Positions 30,468 to 38,815 of a stretch of 64,000 nucleotides of DNA are shown one piece after another. The stretch lies in NCBI GenBank assembly GCA_005503215.1, contig SCNS01000004.1, positions 62,001 through 126,000 on the forward strand. Reading direction: 5' to 3'. Within the stretch, counting starts at the first letter, position 1. The number at the start of each line of letters is the position of its first letter. Both the position numbers and the translations under genes were made by a program. The notes beneath the pieces are model-generated. The model worked only from the letters and a program-made list of their open reading frames with translations. It was not told the DNA's origin and did no database searches. Source of the DNA: Sphingomonadaceae bacterium 3R27C6. Lineage in GTDB: Bacteria > Pseudomonadota > Alphaproteobacteria > Sphingomonadales > Sphingomonadaceae.

Positions 30468-31343
30468 CTAGATTACTCCGGCCGCGGACAGCGCGGCATC
30501 GACGGCGGCGCGCGATGCATCGTTCGCCGGGATGATAGGTAGGCGCACTTCGGGCGAAAACCAGTCGTGGATGCGCGACAGCGCATATTTAACCGGCCCC
30601 GGCGAGGTGTCGGAAAACATCGCCTTGTGCAGATCGAAGAGCCGGTCGTGCAGCACCAGCGCGTGCGCCCAGTCGCCCGCAGCGCAGGCGGCGGCGAAAT
30701 CGGCGCAAAGACGCGGCGCAACATTCGCGGTGACCGAGATGCACCCGGCGCCGCCCATCACAGCATGCGGCAGCCAGAGATCGTCGTTGCCGCTGAGTTG
30801 GCAGAAATCTGCTCCGGCGCCCGCACGTTGCTCCGTGACACGGGCAAGGTCGCCGCTCGCATCCTTGATCGCGACGACGCTCGGGATTTCGGCGAGCTTG
30901 CACATCGTCTCGGCGCTGATGTCGGCGACGGTGCGGCCGGGGACGTTATAGACGACGATCGGCAGGTCGCTGGCGCCTGCGAGCGCCTTGAAATGCGCGA
31001 TCATCCCGTCCTGGCTCGGCCGGTTATAATAAGGCGCGACGATCAGCGCGGCGGTCGCGCCCGCGGCCTGCGCATGGCGCATATGGCGGATCGCGGTCGC
31101 GGTGTCGTTCGACCCGCAGCCCGCGATCACGGGAACGCGTCCCGCAGCGGCCTCGATGCAGCTGTCGATCACCTGATAATGTTCGTCGTAGCCGAGCGTC
31201 GGGCTTTCGCCGGTCGTGCCGCATGGGACGAGCGCGCTGGTCCCCTCTTTGATCTGCCAATCGACAAGGCGTGCGAAGGCCGGGGCATCGAACGCCCCAT
31301 CGCGAAATGGCGTCACCAAAGCGGGAATCGACCCCGAAAACAT
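30468..31343 (-). CDS. dapA: 4-hydroxy-tetrahydrodipicolinate synthase
   Basis: The 291-residue TIM-barrel enzyme has [10 protein letters not shown], the catalytic Tyr132 (YNVPGRT) and the Schiff-base Lys160 (VAIKDASG). It condenses pyruvate with aspartate semialdehyde for lysine and diaminopimelate. It is divergent from the lytic transglycosylase gene; the 367-bp gap between them is mostly taken up by a 268-bp structured repeat. Confidence 0.96.
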
Positions 31344-31439
31344 GCACCGCTCCTTTACAAGAACATGCCTCAGCCGATAGAATCCGGCCAGCGCGCCGCT
31401 ATTGGACGTCTATTCAGCGCCCCGCAAGGAGTTTGGCGT

Positions 31440-31707
31440 TAGGGTCCAAATCCAGAGGTGTCGCATTCGAGGTTTGAAGCGATTTTGTTCAGGGCAAGGA
31501 AGCGAGGCGCAGGCATATGAGCATATTCCAAGGCTCGCTGACGCAGCCATGGACAAAATCGGTCAAATCCCGAAGGGACGTCGAAATGGCTTCGATCTCG
31601 GCCCCGCGCGGCCTTGCAGATGGAACCACCATCGGCGGCGGCCACGCGAAGCCGACACCTTCGCCATTTCGACGCCTCGAACGTGACACCTCTGGATTTG
31701 GACCCTA
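31440..31707 (+). repeat. 268-bp structured palindromic element, copy 1
   Basis: Perfect 23-bp terminal arms (31440-31462, 31685-31707) begin TAGGGTC and end GACCCTA. The 222-bp core contains: an inner continuation of the arm (TCGAGG/CCTCGA); hairpin A (31480-31491 with 31550-31561, inner stem AGCGAG/CTCGCT); a mini-hairpin TCCC-GAA-GGGA (31568-31578); and hairpin B (31579-31590 with 31663-31674, perfect 12 bp, apical stem GATGG/CCATC). Copy 2 at 36584 has the same length and aligns without gaps. This copy lies between dapA and the transglycosylase gene and ends 3 bp before the latter's ATG. I do not recognise the family. TA at both ends would fit a TA target duplication. Confidence 0.85.
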
Positions 31708-31710
31708 CAT

Positions 31711-33741
31711 ATGGCCGGTATGATCTCGCTGACCCGTATCTCCCGCCTCGCGCTCGCCGCGGCCCTCCTCATTCCTACCACCGCGCATGCCAGCGAGCTC
31801 ACTCCCGAACAAATGGCCTGGTATCGCGCGCAGATGGGTCTGGCGGCGACGTCGGGTCCGCCGCCGTCGACGAGTTCGGTCGGCGATGCGGTGATGGAAT
31901 GGCGACGGCTGACGGCGAATACCGGCGCCTCGTTCGATCAGCTTTCGCGCTTCCTGATGGCGAACAAGGGCTGGCCCGACAGCGAAAAGATGCGCACGCG
32001 TGCCGAAAAAGCCATCTCGCTCGACAGCTACGACCCCCAGCGCACCCTCGCCTATTTCCAAACCTACCCGCCGCAGACCGCGAGCGGGCAGCTGCGCTAT
32101 GCGCTCGCGCTCAACGCGTCGGGCCGCCGCGAGGATGCGGCCGCCGCGGTCCGGCGCGCGTGGACGAGCGGGCCGCTCGACGATTACGAAACGAGCCGCG
32201 CGCTCGCCATGTTCCCGGGCGCGATCACCCCTGCCGACCATGACGCGCGCATGGACCGGCTGCTCTGGCTCGGCCAGACCGCCGCGGCAGGCCGCCAGCT
32301 CGCCTATACCTCGCCCGACAAGCGCAACATATTCGCGGCACGGCTCGCGATGCGCAACGCCTCGGTCGACGCGGCCTTTCAGGCATCCGCCGCCGAAAGC
32401 GCCAACCCGTCGCTGACCCGCACCGACGCGGGCTATATCACCGACAAGGCGACCTGGCTGCGCAAGGCGGGGCGCGTCGGCGAAGCGCGCGCGCTGCTCG
32501 CCGCGCCGCGCTCGCTCGCCAAACCGCCGACCGATCCCGAGGAATGGCTGGAAACGCTGCTCACCAACGCGCGGCAGGCGAGCGAAGGCGGCGACAAGAC
32601 GACCGCTTATAATATCGCGCGCCAACTCGACGACGCCTTCGCGCCCGGAACGGTGATCCGCGAGACCTCGCTTAGCGTGCGCGACGATTATACCTCGCTC
32701 GCCTGGCTCGCGGGGCAGCTTGCCTATCGCGACCTGCGTCGTCCCGCCGAGGCGGTGCGCCTCTACCGCGCGTACGGCGAAGCCGCGCGCTCGGCGCAGA
32801 CGCGCACAAAGGGCTTCTACTGGGCCGGCCGCGCGGCGCTGGCGGCGGGCGACCGCTCGACAGCGAATGCGCATTTCGCCGATGCCGCGCAGCATTACGA
32901 CCAATATTATGGCCAGTTGTCGCTGGAGCGACTGAACCGTCCGCAGCCCAGGCCGACCCCCGATCCGACCATTCAGGTCAGCAATGACGAACGCCGCGCG
33001 TTCGAGGATGACCGGCTGGTGCGCGCCGCGCGCGCGCTCGGCGAGATCGGCGCGTGGCGCGAACAGTCGCAGTTCCTGCGCGCGCTCGCGCAACAGGCGA
33101 CCTCGCCCGCCGACCATGTCCTCGCGGGCAAGCTGGCGTCGCAGATCGGACGCCCCGACCTTGGCGTGATGATTGGTCGCAGCGCGCAGGCGAACAGTCT
33201 CGATGCCGTCGAAGTCTCGGGCTTCCCGACCGTCCGCGTTCCCGCCGGGCATGAAAGCAACTGGACCTTCATCCACGCGATCACGCGGCAGGAAAGCCAG
33301 TTCGACCGGCAGGCGATCAGCCACGCCGGCGCGCGCGGGATGATGCAGTTGATGCCGGGCACCGCGCGCGAAGTCGCGGGCAAGCTTGGCATGAGCTATG
33401 ACATGGGCTCGCTGACCACCGACACCAATTACAATATGATGCTGGGCTCGACCTATTTTCAGCAGATGCTGCGCTATTTCGGCGGCAGCTATCCGCTCGC
33501 GGTCGCGGCGTATAATGCCGGTCCGGGCAATGTGAACAAATGGCTGCGCGCCAATGGCGACCCGCGCGGCGGCGGGATCGAGATGGTCGACTGGATCGAG
33601 GCGATCCCGATCTTCGAAACGCGCAACTATGTCCAGCGCGTGCTGGAAAATGCCGTCGTCTACGACACGCTGCGCGACGGCAGCGGGTCGCGGCAGCAGG
33701 CGCCGCTGAGCTTCTACCTCGGCAAACGCACGCCCGGCTAA
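31711..33741 (+). CDS. Soluble lytic murein transglycosylase
   Basis: The 676-residue protein begins with a signal peptide (SRLALAAALLIPTTAHA) followed by a long alpha-helical solenoid of short repeats, as in Slt70. The C-terminal catalytic domain has RQESQFDRQAIS with catalytic Glu528, GARGMMQLMPGTA and AVAAYNAGPGNV. It cleaves peptidoglycan glycan strands to 1,6-anhydro ends in the periplasm. ATG 31711 is 3 bp from the end of the structured repeat; ATG 31720 is an equally good start. Neither has a clear ribosome site, so the repeat must supply or permit the leader. Confidence 0.92.
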   Translation: MAGMISLTRISRLALAAALLIPTTAHASELTPEQMAWYRAQMGLAATSGPPPSTSSVGDAVMEWRRLTANTGASFDQLSRFLMANKGWPDSEKMRTRAEKAISLDSYDPQRTLAYFQTYPPQTASGQLRYALALNASGRREDAAAAVRRAWTSGPLDDYETSRALAMFPGAITPADHDARMDRLLWLGQTAAAGRQLAYTSPDKRNIFAARLAMRNASVDAAFQASAAESANPSLTRTDAGYITDKATWLRKAGRVGEARALLAAPRSLAKPPTDPEEWLETLLTNARQASEGGDKTTAYNIARQLDDAFAPGTVIRETSLSVRDDYTSLAWLAGQLAYRDLRRPAEAVRLYRAYGEAARSAQTRTKGFYWAGRAALAAGDRSTANAHFADAAQHYDQYYGQLSLERLNRPQPRPTPDPTIQVSNDERRAFEDDRLVRAARALGEIGAWREQSQFLRALAQQATSPADHVLAGKLASQIGRPDLGVMIGRSAQANSLDAVEVSGFPTVRVPAGHESNWTFIHAITRQESQFDRQAISHAGARGMMQLMPGTAREVAGKLGMSYDMGSLTTDTNYNMMLGSTYFQQMLRYFGGSYPLAVAAYNAGPGNVNKWLRANGDPRGGGIEMVDWIEAIPIFETRNYVQRVLENAVVYDTLRDGSGSRQQAPLSFYLGKRTPG

Positions 33742-33747
33742 ATCCGC

Positions 33748-34236
33748 ATGGCGGGGGAGAAGACGAACATCATTTCGCCAGCGGGTTATGCCGCGCTGCG
33801 CTCCGAATATGACGTGCTGCTCGGTGACGAGCGGCCGAAGCTCGTCGAGGTGATCAGCTGGGCGGCGGGCAACGGCGACCGCAGCGAAAATGGCGACTAT
33901 ATCTATGGCCGCAAGCGGCTGCGCGAGATCGACCGGCGCCTCTCCTTCCTCGCGCGGCGGATGAAAGCGGCGCGCGTCGTCGACCCCGCCGAGCAGCCCG
34001 ACAAGAGCCGCATCTGGTTCGGCGCGACCGTCGAACTCGCCGACGACGATGATACGCGGCGCATCGTCACGTTGGTCGGCGACGATGAGGCCGAGGCGGG
34101 CGAAGGCCGGATCGGCTGGAACAGCCCCCTCGCCCGCGCGCTGCGCGGCGCGGCGATCGGCGACCTGCGCACCGTGCAGCTGCCTGCGGGGCCCAAGGAA
34201 TGGGAAGTGATGACGGTCAGCTATCCCGCGGCCTGA
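33748..34236 (+). CDS. greB: Transcription elongation factor GreB
   Basis: The 162-residue protein has the N-terminal coiled coil (ISPAGYAALRSEYDVLL, AAGNGDRSENGDYIYGRKRL with the acidic tip and GreB-type basic residues) and the C-terminal FKBP-like domain (IWFGATVELADDDD, SPLARALRGAAIGD). It stimulates transcript cleavage by backtracked RNA polymerase. It begins 7 bp after the transglycosylase stop and is probably co-transcribed. Confidence 0.92.
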   Translation: MAGEKTNIISPAGYAALRSEYDVLLGDERPKLVEVISWAAGNGDRSENGDYIYGRKRLREIDRRLSFLARRMKAARVVDPAEQPDKSRIWFGATVELADDDDTRRIVTLVGDDEAEAGEGRIGWNSPLARALRGAAIGDLRTVQLPAGPKEWEVMTVSYPAA

Positions 34237-34398
34237 TTTTCGGTCTTCCTTCTCGCGTTCACCAAACTTCGTTCGATGCGGAACGACCCGTTCCACCGGA
34301 AGCAGCCGTCCCAAGGTGAGATAGTTGAATGAAAATAATCTCGCTTCGACTCTTCACAGCGGGCATGAGGAGAGGCTGAATGAAGTGGGGAATGGGCA

Positions 34399-35004
34399 AT
34401 GAACAGGGTGCTTTTGGCGATGCTTTCCGTTGCAATGACTAATTCGGCTGTCGCGCAATCCCCTACAATTGAGAAGCCGCGAGGCGCTGCCAAGCTTGAT
34501 TGGAACGCAAAGCCACGTGCGTTCAGCACCAGCGACTACGAACAGCTATTGTCCTGCACACTTTCCCGGCACCCGAAAGAGACACGGGGATATGCCGAGT
34601 ATCATTTGCATTGGCGCGACATTCAAACCCCGGAACAGAATGAGCGCGACCCCAACAGCCAATTGTTGACGCCCGCGTTAGACGGCTGCTTGCAAATGGC
34701 AGACGGTGAACCATTTCCTTTCTCGCTCGATCGGCTGATCGCCGATTGGGGAAAAGCTCACAGCATGATTGTCGTGGACGCTGCTTCGCTTGCAAGCTGC
34801 GCCGCGCGCAACAACAACCTGGCAGCGACCGGTTACGTGGCGGTCGCGAAAGATCCGACCATGAAGGCGAAATCGCTCAACATGATGCAAAGCGCGCTTA
34901 CAATGCCGCCTTGCAGCCCTGTTAAGCCCTTTTCCGTGAAGCAGAACGAATTGCTTTCGTTGCTCACCAAAGAATTGGCTGCGGCGAACGAACGCGATAA
35001 TTGA
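34399..35004 (+). CDS. Exported protein of unknown function
   Basis: The 201-residue product has a short signal peptide (MNRVLLAMLSVAMTNSAVAQ). The mature part is hydrophilic and has four Cys (LLSC, GCLQ, SCAAR, PPCSP) that could form two disulfides in the periplasm. I recognise no family. Base composition is visibly more AT-rich than the neighbours and codons such as TTG, ACA and CAA are more frequent, suggesting later acquisition. It sits alone after greB with a 162-bp AT-richer gap. Confidence 0.65.
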   Translation: MNRVLLAMLSVAMTNSAVAQSPTIEKPRGAAKLDWNAKPRAFSTSDYEQLLSCTLSRHPKETRGYAEYHLHWRDIQTPEQNERDPNSQLLTPALDGCLQMADGEPFPFSLDRLIADWGKAHSMIVVDAASLASCAARNNNLAATGYVAVAKDPTMKAKSLNMMQSALTMPPCSPVKPFSVKQNELLSLLTKELAAANERDN

Positions 35005-35154
35005 AGACGCTAAGGTAAGCCCGCTCACCACCGCTAAGCCGCCAGCGCCCCGGGCAAGGCTCCGCGCGCCGGCATCGACAGCGGCTCGACGCCGGCTGTC
35101 CGAGGAAGAACTCGTCGGCGTGACGAAGGCGAAATAACTACGAAAATAGAAGTG

Positions 35155-35310
35155 TCAGGGCTGCAACAGGGCCGGAATAATCCAGATCGCGGACAGGACG
35201 ACGATCACTGCGATCAGCGAAAAGGCCAGAACATAGCGGACATTATGTCCCTTTACCCCGCTGCTCGCCTCGGTCTCGGTTACCTCGACATGGTCATCGA
35301 CGACTTTCAT
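35155..35310 (-). CDS. 51-residue single-pass membrane peptide
   Basis: The ATG at 35310 follows GGAGA at good spacing. The product starts MKVVDDHVEVTETEASSGVK, an acidic N-terminus, and ends with one hydrophobic helix (about residues 27-48). The ribosome site, codon usage and topology argue for a real gene. It lies downstream of RNase P RNA on the same strand. Function unknown; I believe similar small proteins occur in other sphingomonads, but that needs a search. Confidence 0.65.
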   Translation of the reverse strand: MKVVDDHVEVTETEASSGVKGHNVRYVLAFSLIAVIVVLSAIWIIPALLQP

Positions 35311-35386
35311 GGTTCGTCTCCTTTTCTGGTCCGCCTAATACGCGGCCCGGCGCGGAGCGGTTCCCGCGCGGCTTCAGGGAGAGAGG

Positions 35387-35776
35387 TGCCAGAGGGTCTA
35401 TAAGCCGGGTTCTGTCTATCCCCTTGCGGGGACTGTGCGATCATTCCTCTAGGCGAACGGTTACCCGAACGCTCAAGCAGTCAACCCGGACGGCTGGGCC
35501 GGAATCAGCCCTGGATAAATCCGTACCGTCCCTATTCGACCTTGCTCCCGGTGGGGTTTGCCGTGCCGCGCCTGTTACCAGCCGCGCGGTGCGCTCTTAC
35601 CGCACCCTTTCACCTTTCGCCGGGCCGAAGCCTTTGGCGGTCTGCTCTCTGTGGCACTTTCCCTGAACCTGGCCGAAGCCCGATCCGCCGGACGTTATCC
35701 GGCACCGTGATTTCCGTGGAGCCCGGACTTTCCTCCCCTTTCTTGCGAAAGCGGCGATCGCCCGACCCTCTGGCGA
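35387..35776 (-). ncRNA. rnpB: RNase P RNA (class A)
   Basis: The minus strand has the universal RNase P RNA blocks: GAGGAAAGTCCGGGCTCC (P4 5' side) near the 5' end, the conserved CAGGGTGC-type region, GGTAAACTCC-like positions in the middle (ACGGTACGGATTTATCC), and AGACAGAACCCGGCTTATAG near the 3' end (P4 3' side). The terminal helix P1 pairs CGCCAGAGGG with CCCTCTGG. Length of about 390 nt fits alphaproteobacteria. It processes tRNA 5' ends. Ends are approximate by a few bases. Confidence 0.95.
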
Positions 35777-35781
35777 GAGCG

Positions 35782-35810
35782 AGTATAGCCCTCATCGGGC
35801 GCTTTGACGA
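35782..35810 (-). promoter_or_regulatory. Likely sigma-70 promoter of rnpB
   Basis: On the minus strand TATACT (35782-35787) is a good -10 box, with TCGTCA 17 bp upstream as a 4-of-6 match to TTGACA. Transcription would start about 7 bp downstream, at the 5' end of the RNase P RNA. Confidence 0.55.
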
Positions 35811-35814
35811 GGAA

Positions 35815-36504
35815 TCAATTGCCTTCGGGCTGGGGAAGCAGCAGCGCGAGCAGGATCGCGCGGCATTCGCCGTCGATCGTGCCGTCGATCAGTTCGGGGC
35901 GAAAGCGCCGCTGGAACGCAACGGTCGCCGCGAACCCGTCGGTCACATCGTAACCGAAGCGCTCAAGCGCGAGCAGGAAGCCCGCGTCGGTCCACAAGGG
36001 ATCGGTAAGCTTCTTTGTCGGCCGCGGCAGCGCGAGGCGGCGGCGTGCTAGCTCTTCCCACGGAAACAGCTCGCCCGGATCCTGCTTGCGCGTCGGCGCG
36101 ATGTCCGAATGGCCGATGACATTTCCGCGTGTGACCGAATGCCGGTCCTTGATCTGGTGGACGAGGCGGACGACCGAGGCGACCTGCGGGTCGGGGAACG
36201 GCACATAGCCCCATTCATGCCCCGGATTGACGATCTCGATCCCGACGCTCGCCGAATTGATGTCGCTGATGCCGCGCCAGTGCGACTTGCCCGCGTGCCA
36301 GGCGCGCTTGTCCTCCGGCACCATCTGGGTGATCTGCCCGTCCTCGCTGACGACATAATGCGCCGACACGCTGGATTCGGGATTGGCAAGCCAATCAATG
36401 GCTTCGGTGCCGCTCTTCATACCGGTATAATGCAGCACGATCATCGAGATGGGCAGCGCGCGCTCGTCGAAATTGGGAGACCAGCGTTCGATAAAATCGC
36501 TCAT
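35815..36504 (-). CDS. N-acetylmuramoyl-L-alanine amidase (AmpD/AmiD family)
   Basis: The 229-residue protein has the Amidase_2 zinc site: the N-terminal His in IVLHYTGM, a second ligand in WHAGKSHWRG/VGIEIVNPG and the C-terminal HSDIAPTRKQDPG with His and Asp. The last 60 residues are a peptidoglycan-binding-type helical domain (LERFGYDVTDGFAATVAFQR). There is no obvious signal peptide, so it may be a cytoplasmic AmpD-like recycler. It lies between the chemotaxis operon (across a structured repeat) and rnpB. Confidence 0.9.
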   Translation of the reverse strand: MSDFIERWSPNFDERALPISMIVLHYTGMKSGTEAIDWLANPESSVSAHYVVSEDGQITQMVPEDKRAWHAGKSHWRGISDINSASVGIEIVNPGHEWGYVPFPDPQVASVVRLVHQIKDRHSVTRGNVIGHSDIAPTRKQDPGELFPWEELARRRLALPRPTKKLTDPLWTDAGFLLALERFGYDVTDGFAATVAFQRRFRPELIDGTIDGECRAILLALLLPQPEGN

Positions 36505-36583
36505 GCGCTCGGGGGACCCGTCCTGTGCTTGCCAAGCCGTCGATTGCGCCAGTGGCGCGCAAAAAGCAAGGCAGAGCCTGTCC

Positions 36584-36851
36584 TAGGGTCAGGACCTAGT
36601 AATTGCGCGATCGAGGTTTGAAGCGATTTTGTTCAGTGCGAGGAGGCAAGGCGCAGGAATATGTCGATATTTCCAGACTTGCCGACGACGCAATGGACAA
36701 AATCGATCAAATCCCGAAGGGACGCCGAAATGGCTTCGATCTCAGGCCCGCGCGGCCTTGCAGGTAGCGATGCTACCCGCGGCGGCCACCCGGACCCGAT
36801 ATCTTCGCCATTTCGACGCCTCGAACGTGCAATTACTAGGTCCTGACCCTA
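36584..36851 (+). repeat. 268-bp structured palindromic element, copy 2
   Basis: Same size and layout as copy 1, 211 of 268 positions identical with no gaps by hand alignment. The 23-bp arms (36584-36606, 36829-36851) keep the outer TAGGGTC but differ from copy 1 at 10 of the next 16 positions, and every change is matched on the opposite arm. One extra complementary pair flanks each end beyond TA. Hairpin A has GGCAAG/CTTGCC and hairpin B has the apical stem GGTAGC/GCTACC. It lies between cheR and the amidase gene. Its right end forms the cheR stop codon. Confidence 0.85.
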
Positions 36852-37706
36852 GGCCGCGGCGGCGCGGCGCCCCTGCTGATCGGCCGGCTCGTACAGGCCG
36901 CGCAGGCGCGGGCTCGCGACGAACTGATCGGTCTGGCCGAGCACCGTTTCCCCCGCACCGAGCACGAGGAAGCTTTGCGGCGCCGCCATCGCGCGGAGCC
37001 GTGCAAAGGCTTTCTGGCGCATCGGTGCTGAGAAATAGAGCAGCAGGTTGCGGCAGAAGATCAGGTCGGCGGGACTCGCCAGCGGCGGCCGGTCGGTAAG
37101 CATATTCTGCACCGAAAAATCGACGCGGCGGCGCAGGTCCGCCTTGGCGAGCCATCCGCCCTCGGTCTGGTCGAACCAGCGCACCATGCGCTGCACCGGC
37201 AGGCCGCGCTGGATCTCGAACTGGCTGTAAAGGCCGACGCGCGCGCGCGAAATCGCATGATAGCTGACGTCGGTGCCGACGATATCGACCTGCCAACCCG
37301 CCCATTTCGCGCCTTGCTCGGCGATCAGCATTGCCAGCGAATAGGCTTCCTGGCCGGTCGATACGCCGCAATGCCACACGGTCAGCCGGCGGCGCATTTT
37401 GTTGATCTCGCGAATCTTCTCAAGCGCGGTCGCAGCTATTTCGTCGAACACACTATATTCGCGGTAAAAATAGGTTTCGTTGTTGAGCATTGCATCGACG
37501 GTATCGTCGAGCAGTTGCCGGCTGTTCGAGGTCACCAGCGCCGCGACGAGCGCATCGAGATCGGCGATGCCGTGGCGCTGCATCACGGGTTTAAGCGACA
37601 TTTCGATCCGCCAGATGCGGTTCGGCGACAGCGTCTGGCCCGTCCGCGATTCGAGCACGCCCATCAGGACGCGGTACGCCGACTCGCTGGCGCTTCCGTC
37701 CATCAT
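36849..37706 (-). CDS. cheR: Chemotaxis protein methyltransferase CheR
   Basis: The start at 37706 overlaps cheB by 4 nt and gives 285 residues: the N-terminal helical domain, then the SAM-binding domain with NNETYFYREYSVFDE, VWHCGVSTGQEAYSLAML and FCRNLLLYFS. It methylates glutamates on chemoreceptors. The stop codon TAG (36849-36851) is formed by the terminal TA of the adjoining structured repeat, so the last residues (RRAAAA) may be shaped by that insertion. Confidence 0.94.
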   Translation of the reverse strand: MMDGSASESAYRVLMGVLESRTGQTLSPNRIWRIEMSLKPVMQRHGIADLDALVAALVTSNSRQLLDDTVDAMLNNETYFYREYSVFDEIAATALEKIREINKMRRRLTVWHCGVSTGQEAYSLAMLIAEQGAKWAGWQVDIVGTDVSYHAISRARVGLYSQFEIQRGLPVQRMVRWFDQTEGGWLAKADLRRRVDFSVQNMLTDRPPLASPADLIFCRNLLLYFSAPMRQKAFARLRAMAAPQSFLVLGAGETVLGQTDQFVASPRLRGLYEPADQQGRRAAAA

Positions 37707-38815
37707 GGCTTGCGGCGCCCCTGTCCGCGCCCTTGCAGGAAGCTGCCGAGCATCAGCGCGATCGCGTCGGGGTTCAGCGTCGCCGCCGCGAGGCCCGCCT
37801 TGGCCACGGCGCCGGGCATGCCCCAGATCACGCAACTTTCGGGCGCCTGCGCGAAAATCGTGCCGCCGGCCTCTTTCAGCCGCGCCGCACCGATCACGCC
37901 GTCGCGGCCCATGCCACTGAGGATGACGGCAACCCCGCCCTTGCCATAAATCTCGGCGACCGAATCGAGCATCGGGTCGGCTGAGGGGCAGCAGCCATTG
38001 TCGACGACACGGTGATCGAGCGCGATTTCGGCCCTACGCCCATTGGCGACGACAAGCAGATGCGCATCGCCCGGCGCGAGATAGATGCAGCCGCGCTCGA
38101 GGGCCATTCCGGCTTCGGCGACGCGGACGCGGCGCGTCGTCATCGTCGCGATCTGCTTGGCGTAAAATTCCATGAAGGCGTCGGGCAGATGCTGGGTCAG
38201 CAGAATCGGCGCGCTGATCCTGGGATCGAGGTGCGCGAGGAAATTGGCGAAGGCCGGGATGCCGCCGGTCGATGCCGCGACCGCGATGCATTCGATCGGC
38301 TGATCGGTATCGATCGTGAATGCGGCGGGGGCCGGAGCCGGGCGCTCGGCCGCCGGGACCGTCGCAGGAAAGTCGCGTTGATGGCCGAGCGTCATGATCC
38401 GCTCGGTCAGCACTTCGGCGAAACGCCCCGAGAAGCTGCCGCGCCCCGGCTTGGCGAGCGTGTCGCTGGCGCCGAGCGCCAACGCGTCGATCGCGGCGGG
38501 ACCGCCCTCGACGCAGTTCGAGGAGAGGATGAGAACGCGCGCCTTTTCGGCGCGCTCCAATATGTGCGGCAGGGCGTCGATGCCGCTCATCCCGGGCATC
38601 TCGATGTCGAGCACGACGACGTCGACGGGCTCGCGCGCCAGATAATCGAGCGCATCATGCGCCGAGGCGACCGAGGCGCAGATCTTGAGCCCGGGCCGCT
38701 GGTCGACGATCCGTTCGAGGATGCTGCGAACGACGAGGCTGTCGTCGACGAGCATCACGCGCACGGTGCGGGCGGTTGGCTCGGGATCGGATATCAGGCG
38801 TTGTGGACGGGCCAC
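37703..38815 (-). CDS. cheB: Chemotaxis response regulator/protein-glutamate methylesterase CheB
   Basis: The 370-residue protein has an N-terminal receiver (MLVDDSLVVR, phosphoacceptor Asp70 in LDIEMPGMSG) and the C-terminal CheB_methylest domain with catalytic Ser182 (AASTGG), His209 (TQHLP) and Asp in SGMGRDG. It removes receptor methyl groups when phosphorylated by CheA. It starts with GTG, 11 bp after cheY, and overlaps cheR. Confidence 0.95.
   Translation of the reverse strand: MARPQRLISDPEPTARTVRVMLVDDSLVVRSILERIVDQRPGLKICASVASAHDALDYLAREPVDVVVLDIEMPGMSGIDALPHILERAEKARVLILSSNCVEGGPAAIDALALGASDTLAKPGRGSFSGRFAEVLTERIMTLGHQRDFPATVPAAERPAPAPAAFTIDTDQPIECIAVAASTGGIPAFANFLAHLDPRISAPILLTQHLPDAFMEFYAKQIATMTTRRVRVAEAGMALERGCIYLAPGDAHLLVVANGRRAEIALDHRVVDNGCCPSADPMLDSVAEIYGKGGVAVILSGMGRDGVIGAARLKEAGGTIFAQAPESCVIWGMPGAVAKAGLAAATLNPDAIALMLGSFLQGRGQGRRKP

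Follow-up and report, generated by a model that had tools for sequence, protein, structure and literature searches.

Why do two short repeats of a sphingomonad genome change their bases in pairs, and what holds the pairs together? The question is raised by a 64,000-nucleotide stretch of Sphingomonadaceae bacterium 3R27C6 (the window: assembly GCA_005503215.1, contig SCNS01000004.1, positions 62,001 to 126,000), in which an earlier note had picked out two 268-bp elements, copy 1 and copy 2. Each consists of two terminal arms around a closing stem, a hairpin A, a mini-hairpin and a hairpin B (Table 1). The earlier note left a choice between selection on the structure, either as a structured RNA or as a mobile element that works through single-stranded hairpins, and correction of the arms by template switching. 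The window copies belong to a non-coding mobile element of ~266 bp. The reading preferred here, with a probability of about one half, is that the element is likely moved in trans by transposases of IS5-family insertion sequences (IS) and that what selection likely keeps is its paired fold, and not the sequence of its ends.

Paired changes in the two copies and in the family

Both copies lie where they had been reported, with the same length and a gap-free alignment of 211/268 identical positions. Under the fold of copy 1, which has 104 pairs, 16 pairs are changed on both sides, namely the ten arm switches, each matched on the opposite arm, and exactly the six internal switches that the earlier note had listed. 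Independent sides would give 3.31 such changes, and the maximum in 5000 shuffles is 9. One-sided changes occur at 5 pairs (columns 27-242, 74-89, 142-233, 161-214, and 168-207). The claim of compensatory changes in every stem is slightly too strong, because no pair differs between the copies in the mini-hairpin or in the apex stem of hairpin A. The predicted fold energy is -162.4 kcal/mol for copy 1 (shuffled mean -91.2, z -13.8) and -153.7 kcal/mol for copy 2 (shuffled mean -87.5, z -13.1), and the minus strand of copy 1 likewise has a predicted fold far better than shuffles (z -14.7).

For the wider set, copies were taken, among the matches listed, if they resembled copy 1 or contained an exact core 22-mer; 184 copies were found and 178 aligned, and six were dropped for their length or for N. 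This way of picking overstates core conservation, above all at columns ~220-241, and passes over copies whose core has decayed. The earlier note had made its case depend on further copies in related genomes and on compensated arm changes, and both are found. Matches are present in 51 of 60 genomes of the genus sample (window genome included), and among 157 independent copies from every clade the arms average 0.80 mismatches in 20 pairs. The family sample has matches in 37 of 298 genomes, spread over 21 of 96 genera, and the window's genus contributes five of these 37. The order sample has matches in 32 of 296 genomes, two of them outside the family. Since 12 candidates per genome were scored in the genus sample and 2 in the family and order samples, these counts are lower bounds. 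The listed matches per genus genome range from 0 to 13, arm fragments counted, and the window genome has seven copies, two more rows being arms matched in reverse. Named records in the exact core 22-mer scan are nearly all Sphingopyxis, among the matches listed. Six plasmid records (Sphingopyxis, Sphingobium, and Novosphingobium) carry copies, and phage cargo is ruled out by the absence of any match in 50,697 phage records.

For covariation, 44 copies were chosen for diversity from 134 full-length independent copies, with the fold of copy 1 as the reference structure for the family. They align over 268 columns without a gap. Paired cells amount to 94.9%, compared to 78.4% after shuffling, two-sided changes are present at 70 of the 104 pairs, and the covariation score is 0.455 against 0.064-0.108 with the partners slid. 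The terminal stem is part of both predicted window folds, and its helix 1 is paired in 95.1% of the cells across the 44 copies; helix 4 and most of the mini-hairpin have too little variation to be informative. A protein-coding element is ruled out by stops in most copies (each of the six frames is interrupted in 129 or more of 159 gap-free copies) and by the lack of three-base periodicity. The element is therefore short and non-coding, with no transposase gene inside, unlike autonomous IS of the IS5 family.

The same pairing is seen in copies that stayed in place. Same-site copies were defined by matching flanks on both sides in different genomes, which gave 22 pairs among the 178 copies. Twelve contrasts were used; the pairs not used were L027/L038, which may be separate insertions, L200/L215, whose right flank is weak, and the remainder, which were redundant. 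The arms have 18 two-sided changes against 2.95 expected, with a maximum of 8 in 2000 shuffles. The corresponding figures are 6 against 0.94 for the closing stem, 12 against 1.19 for hairpin A, and 11 against 2.19 for hairpin B, and the mini-hairpin has none. Change per site is 0.143 in the unpaired core, 0.105 in the arms, 0.054 in hairpin A, and 0.076 in hairpin B. Pairing is kept while the element sits still, and the need for two matching ends in transposition is therefore no explanation of it. Family covariation and the compensated in-place changes together support the maintained structure that had been proposed. The fold is likely selected, and probably as RNA.

What is kept differs between the arms and the core. 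Copy 1 and the copies whose core lies within 12% of it form a clade of 38 copies, 30 of them independent. The inner 219 bp of the element is conserved, while in this clade the 20-nt arms are distinct in all 30 independent members. Mean variability is 0.41 in the arms, 0.07 in the paired core, and 0.16 in the unpaired core. About ten positions of the core reach at least 0.5, and most are invariant. Together with the arm pairing, this indicates that the core is constrained and that the arms are free apart from their pairing. With up to 3 mismatches allowed, positions 31440-31462 have no occurrence in 60 genus genomes beyond the two arms of copy 1 itself. For eight copies whose insertion sites are empty in relatives, the arm difference is 0.41 and the core difference 0.087. 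Rewriting of the arms at each jump was considered, as non-orthologous pairs exceed orthologous ones in arm difference when the core difference is equal. It is not needed, because an old lineage with a constrained core explains the arm excess; those ten or so core positions vary as much as the arms, while most of the core does not.

Some copies depart from the common form. Locus L109 (213-377) is a shortened derivative of ~165 bp with both ends and the two flanks of hairpin A, and without hairpin B. The core has 234 nt in L026 and L034, and L026 has a 15-nt insertion at the mini-hairpin. Copy L192 lies beside a stretch of N on a metagenome contig named Tagaea, and may be contamination of that metagenome bin.

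Insertion sites, insertion sequences with matching ends, and neighbouring genes

Both window copies are absent from the corresponding sites of relatives, and they were inserted at TA. Relatives such as L266 have GCAAGGAGTTTGGCATTACTATGG at the site of copy 1, where the window has GCAAGGAGTTTGGCGTTA, the element, and TACATATGG. At the site of copy 2, relative L293 has GGCCTAGGACAGG with a plain CTAG. The core is absent at each window site in 29/29 other loci (best 30 from a search of 60 genomes). The comparison of loci with and without the element, which the earlier note had suggested with a TA duplication in mind, thus shows empty sites with the targets TA and CTAG, and supports a mobile element with a TA target. 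For seven further copies (L010, L151, L159, L165, L170, L188, and L202), the joined flanks were tested in eight genomes and match without interruption in several relatives, so these sites are also empty; the L165 and L202 sites are in addition occupied in one other genome each. The junctions are TA or CTAG in the window copies, TAA-like in L151 and L010, and ambiguous in L159; at TA targets, a duplication is not distinguishable from insertion between T and A. At L165, L170, and L202, the bases right at the junction are unlike most or all of the empty sites compared. Independent copies with TA at both ends lie within Y-TA-R in 71 of 79 cases, and Y-TA-R is the target preference of the IS5 family. 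TA is present on both sides in 55 of 75 independent copies with IS-like arms.

The end TAGGGTCAGGACCCATT is common to element copies and to an insertion sequence of ~846 bp, which has a DUF4096 part and a DDE_Tnp_1 part and falls in NCBIfam IS5. In the survey of IS ends, 36 IS loci were looked at and an end pair was obtained for 23. The element arms agree with these ends at 14/14 positions in 49 of the 178 copies, and with at most one mismatch of 14 in 84. A second end type, TAGGCCGTAAACTCAT, is the same in copies L247 and L255 and in IS locus L325. The DUF4096 IS loci of the genus (L325, L333, and others; ~850 bp) differ in their ends by type (TAGGGTCAGG, TAGGCCGTAAAC, TAGGCCGTGTTG, TAGGCGCTGTCT, and others), and nearly all ends of the ~850-bp IS5-type elements of the genus begin with TAGG. 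About half of the copies are thus like miniature inverted-repeat transposable elements (MITEs), with ends like those of IS5-family insertion sequences. Because the ends match, an IS5-family transposase is the likely mover in trans. The single-stranded-DNA route that had been offered as an option has no positive support; the IS with matching ends carry an IS5-family DDE transposase, and the Y-TA-R figure, which covers the copies with TA at both ends, points the same way. Genome G037 (L096, L116, L121, L122, and others) has 36 IS-like end matches with at most one mismatch, 18 forward and 18 reverse, which looks like a recent burst.

Insertions lie mostly between genes. Genes were called by GC content at third codon positions and a longest-frame rule, and the start was checked for the transglycosylase gene alone. 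When the flanks were joined, 35 of 140 insertion points fell in a gene-like frame, compared to 475 of 700 for TA points taken at random in the same flanks and 537 of 700 for points taken at random; the 35/140 is an upper bound, in which the leader-located copy 1 is counted by the longest-frame rule, and 21 of 161 insertions were excluded for short flanks. No called gene spans any of the 178 copies, a figure that is uninformative since the element's own stops break the frames. Among the 161 independent insertions, those between co-directional genes are sense in 55 cases and antisense in 17 (p 8e-6), 60 lie in the other two arrangements, and 29 are not placeable. In 28 of 84 plus-strand genes upstream, and in 18 of 46 minus-strand genes downstream, the stop codon is formed by the target TA and the first G of the element. 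For 22 copies of plus orientation and 3 of minus orientation, an ATG that opens at least 80 codons is found at most 6 nt away.

The two window copies are instances of both kinds of site. Copy 1 sits in the leader of the transglycosylase gene and separates the AAGGAG from the start codon ATG. The stop codon of the CheR-domain gene coincides with the end of copy 2 at its CTAG target. No intrinsic terminator was found in a search of both strands of 31300-31800. In the Rfam scan of the window, which the earlier note had also suggested, only RNase P and two tRNAs are above threshold and the element stays below the threshold of every family. The top match of copy 1 scores 26.5 bits against a threshold of 268, and a known RNA family is ruled out for the element by these scores. 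The bacterial RNase P RNA class A (35385-35773, minus strand) lies between copy 1 and copy 2.

Table 1. Features of the two element copies and their neighbourhood, in window positions
Feature	Position	Strand	Remark
Copy 1 of the element	31440..31707	+	outermost T and A are part of the TA target; element proper 264-266 bp
Copy 1 left arm	31440..31464	+	
Copy 1 closing stem	31466..31472	+	partner strand 31675-31681
Copy 1 hairpin A	31473..31567	+	
Copy 1 mini-hairpin	31568..31578	+	sequence TCCCGAAGGGA
Copy 1 hairpin B	31579..31674	+	
Copy 1 right arm	31683..31707	+	pairing partner is the copy 1 left arm
Copy 2 of the element	36584..36851	+	
Copy 2 left arm	36584..36608	+	
Copy 2 hairpin A	36617..36711	+	
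Copy 2 mini-hairpin	36712..36722	+	
Copy 2 hairpin B	36723..36818	+	
Copy 2 right arm	36827..36851	+	pairing partner is the copy 2 left arm
AAGGAG, Shine-Dalgarno-like	31426..31431	+	present upstream of the transglycosylase gene in 10 aligned relatives too
Gene with transglycosylase SLT domain	31711..33741	+	start codon just after copy 1
Gene with CheR methyltransferase domain	36849..37835	-	stop codon is CTA at 36849-36851 (plus strand)

Proposed mechanism and rival explanations

In the proposed mechanism, an IS5-type transposase would insert the element at TA, mostly between genes and often within a stop codon or just before a start codon. When the insertion falls inside a stop codon, the first G of the element would restore the stop as TAG. 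In a read-through transcript the insert would then form a single closed stem carrying two hairpins, and the folded insert may keep the neighbouring signals side by side, either a stop codon or a ribosome-binding site and its start codon. With its stem closed, copy 1 would leave 11 nt between AAGGAG and ATG, compared to 12 in the element-free relative L266. A change in one arm would be harmful unless it is matched in the other, so that the letters of the arms may drift while their pairing, which is observed, stays. On this view the fold would affect the neighbouring genes, and a mobile hairpin between a ribosome site and a start codon provides a natural experiment on translation across an inserted structure.

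Several observations weigh against this reading. TA is present at both ends in just 24 of 86 independent copies with diverged arms, and L165, L170, L188, and L202 are without a clean TA duplication. In the clade of copy 1, 31 of 38 arms differ from all IS ends found at 3-7 of 14 positions, and a search for PF13340 (DUF4096) in the draft genome of the window (53 contigs) gave no match. Copies with diverged arms have a clear sense bias (32 to 6) and those with IS-like arms a weak one (23 to 11, p 0.058), with no significant difference between the two groups (p 0.16). A ribosome-site-like motif lies upstream in 5 of the 22 plus copies near an ATG and in 10 of 139 others (p 0.036). The picture of a split ribosome site therefore fits a minority of copies, and as a general rule it is unsupported. 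The remaining points concern the strand on which the fold is read. Private mismatches in hairpin B are G.T 30, A.C 81, and other 96 (p 1.4e-6), which the read-through model leaves unexplained. Those in the arms have no strand preference (G.T 77, A.C 71, other 98; p 0.68), a result not expected from selection on plus-strand RNA alone. One-sided arm changes in place do lean to G.T (G.T 13, A.C 3, other 6), though the 13 to 3 is a small figure.

Hairpin A behaves differently from hairpin B. Its private mismatches over all copies are G.T 63, A.C 28, and other 66 (p 0.0003 for G.T vs A.C), and its in-place one-sided changes are G.T 10, A.C 3, and other 6, compared to G.T 5, A.C 18, and other 16 in hairpin B. 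The direction of the bias is the same in four gene contexts, with hairpin B at just 9 to 8 in the antisense group. The excess of G-U wobbles on the plus strand noted between the window copies therefore extends through the family for hairpin A, is reversed in hairpin B, and is not seen in the private arm mismatches. From these opposite biases, it looks as if the plus strand is the one read in hairpin A and the minus strand the one read in hairpin B. It is a speculation that the arms must pair on the transcripts of both strands and hence tolerate neither wobble. Taken further, the element may be an inside-out transposable element, whose mover would read the conserved core and whose ends would be defined only by their mutual pairing, each lineage having private, self-matching ends; it would also be two-faced, with hairpin A acting on the RNA of one strand and hairpin B on that of the other. 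This extension is tentative and, as a whole, rather improbable.

Another explanation is that the joint change of the arms reflects nothing more than the fit of both ends to one transposase, with different IS5-family transposases requiring different ends and no folding needed for the arms. The arms of the 84 copies within one mismatch of a genus IS5-type end, the second end type shared by L247, L255, and IS locus L325, and the unbiased G.T and A.C mismatches of the arms, which fit a constraint on double-stranded DNA, agree with this explanation. In contrast, it does not account for the distinct arms of all 30 independent members of the copy 1 clade, for the distance of 31 of its 38 arms from the IS ends (obtained from 23 of 36 IS loci), or for the arm of copy 1, which occurs nowhere else in 60 genomes. 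Moreover, the arms also change jointly in same-site copies, and covariation extends to hairpins A and B, which are not ends. The idea that the arms are IS ends and nothing else holds for about half of the copies (60-genome arm search, 23 IS end pairs), and the explanation is doubtful for the family as a whole. A less probable alternative is that template switching in replication copies one arm onto the other, so that pairing is kept by mutation and not by selection. Such a mechanism is on record for RNA stems (PMC8794818), and it suits the nearly pure Watson-Crick arms with their low mismatch count, as well as 6 of 17 in-place paired arm changes that are transversions without a wobble intermediate. 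It also suits L027/L038, which may be two separate insertions and have 8 paired arm changes, including five consecutive ones (positions 12-16), and 0 unpaired. On the other side, the G.T pair in hairpin A is fixed (174/178) and other conserved mismatches persist, which weighs against copying because erasure would be easier there than across the 202-nt gap between the arms. In the 12 contrasts, paired arm changes are mostly isolated, adjacent ones being found just at positions 15-16 of L082/L147, and the opposite strand biases of hairpins A and B are not predicted. Arm correction by template switching, one of the options left by the earlier note, is thus disfavoured and unlikely. Same-site copies with compensated arms in related species provide natural test sets for selection on an RNA fold against template-switch copying, a question raised in PMC8794818.

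An ordinary host regulatory RNA, riboswitch-like or a small RNA, inherited vertically with its gene, would also have a strong conserved fold, a sense bias, and sites near start codons. However, matches vary from 0 to 13 per genome with arm fragments included, both flanks are shared in just 22 pairs among 178 copies, both window sites are empty in relatives, and no Rfam family is at threshold, which makes this explanation very improbable.

Comparison with known systems

Miniature inverted-repeat transposable elements: The element is short and non-coding, and it is present in several copies at sites that are empty in relatives, as in MITEs. Conserved ends shared with an IS are found in the 84 of 178 copies with at most one mismatch of 14, whereas 31 of 38 arms of the copy 1 clade have at least 3. 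Classical MITEs keep their ends while the middle decays. The copy 1 clade reverses this pattern, which raises the question of what a transposase or a transcript reads in it.

IS5-family insertion sequences: The IS with DUF4096 and DDE_Tnp_1 parts (~850 bp) resemble the element in the TA-flanked ends TAGGGTCAGGAC[CT]CAT or TAGGCCGTAAACTCAT, which are present in about half of the copies. They differ in encoding a transposase and in an end repeat of ~18-20 bp, compared to the 25 arm pairs and closing stem of the element.

Reports on sphingomonads: Among the matches listed, no such element is named in the open PMC literature, and PMC3733652 contains no word starting with Sphingo. In the excerpts of PMC2229807 and PMC2759123 on ERIC, Correia, and CIR, ends that are free in sequence and yet paired, around a conserved middle, are not described.

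ERIC/IRU/RU-1: This enterobacterial MITE of 127 bp is likewise short and mostly intergenic, with a TA target duplication (PMC2229807, PMC2759123). Its transcripts fold into a long stem-loop that is proposed to affect the neighbouring mRNA (PMC2229807, PMC2759123). In contrast, ERIC has about half the length of the present element, which has a branched two-hairpin fold, variable but paired arms, and a conserved inner part, and is found in Sphingomonadaceae. With 268 columns against 127 bp, and with hosts of the genus, family, and order samples against enterobacteria, the element is by description not an ERIC/RU-1 unit.

Correia/NEMIS: The Neisseria element is a TA-flanked MITE with 24-bp inverted repeats, and its RNA stem-loops are proposed targets of RNase III (PMC2229807). 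Compared by description, it has another host, and the arms of the present element are not a fixed sequence.

CIR: The Caulobacter/Brucella repeat of ~110 bp is similar to the present element in being alphaproteobacterial and intergenic and in having a conserved proposed fold, in which a linker joins two stem-loops (PMC2229807). In the excerpt of the same source, CIR is described without pairing between its 5' and 3' ends. The ends of the present element, on the contrary, form a 25-bp stem over a length of ~266 bp, and the terminal stem, which is part of both predicted window folds and nearly always paired in helix 1, sets it apart from the CIR type.

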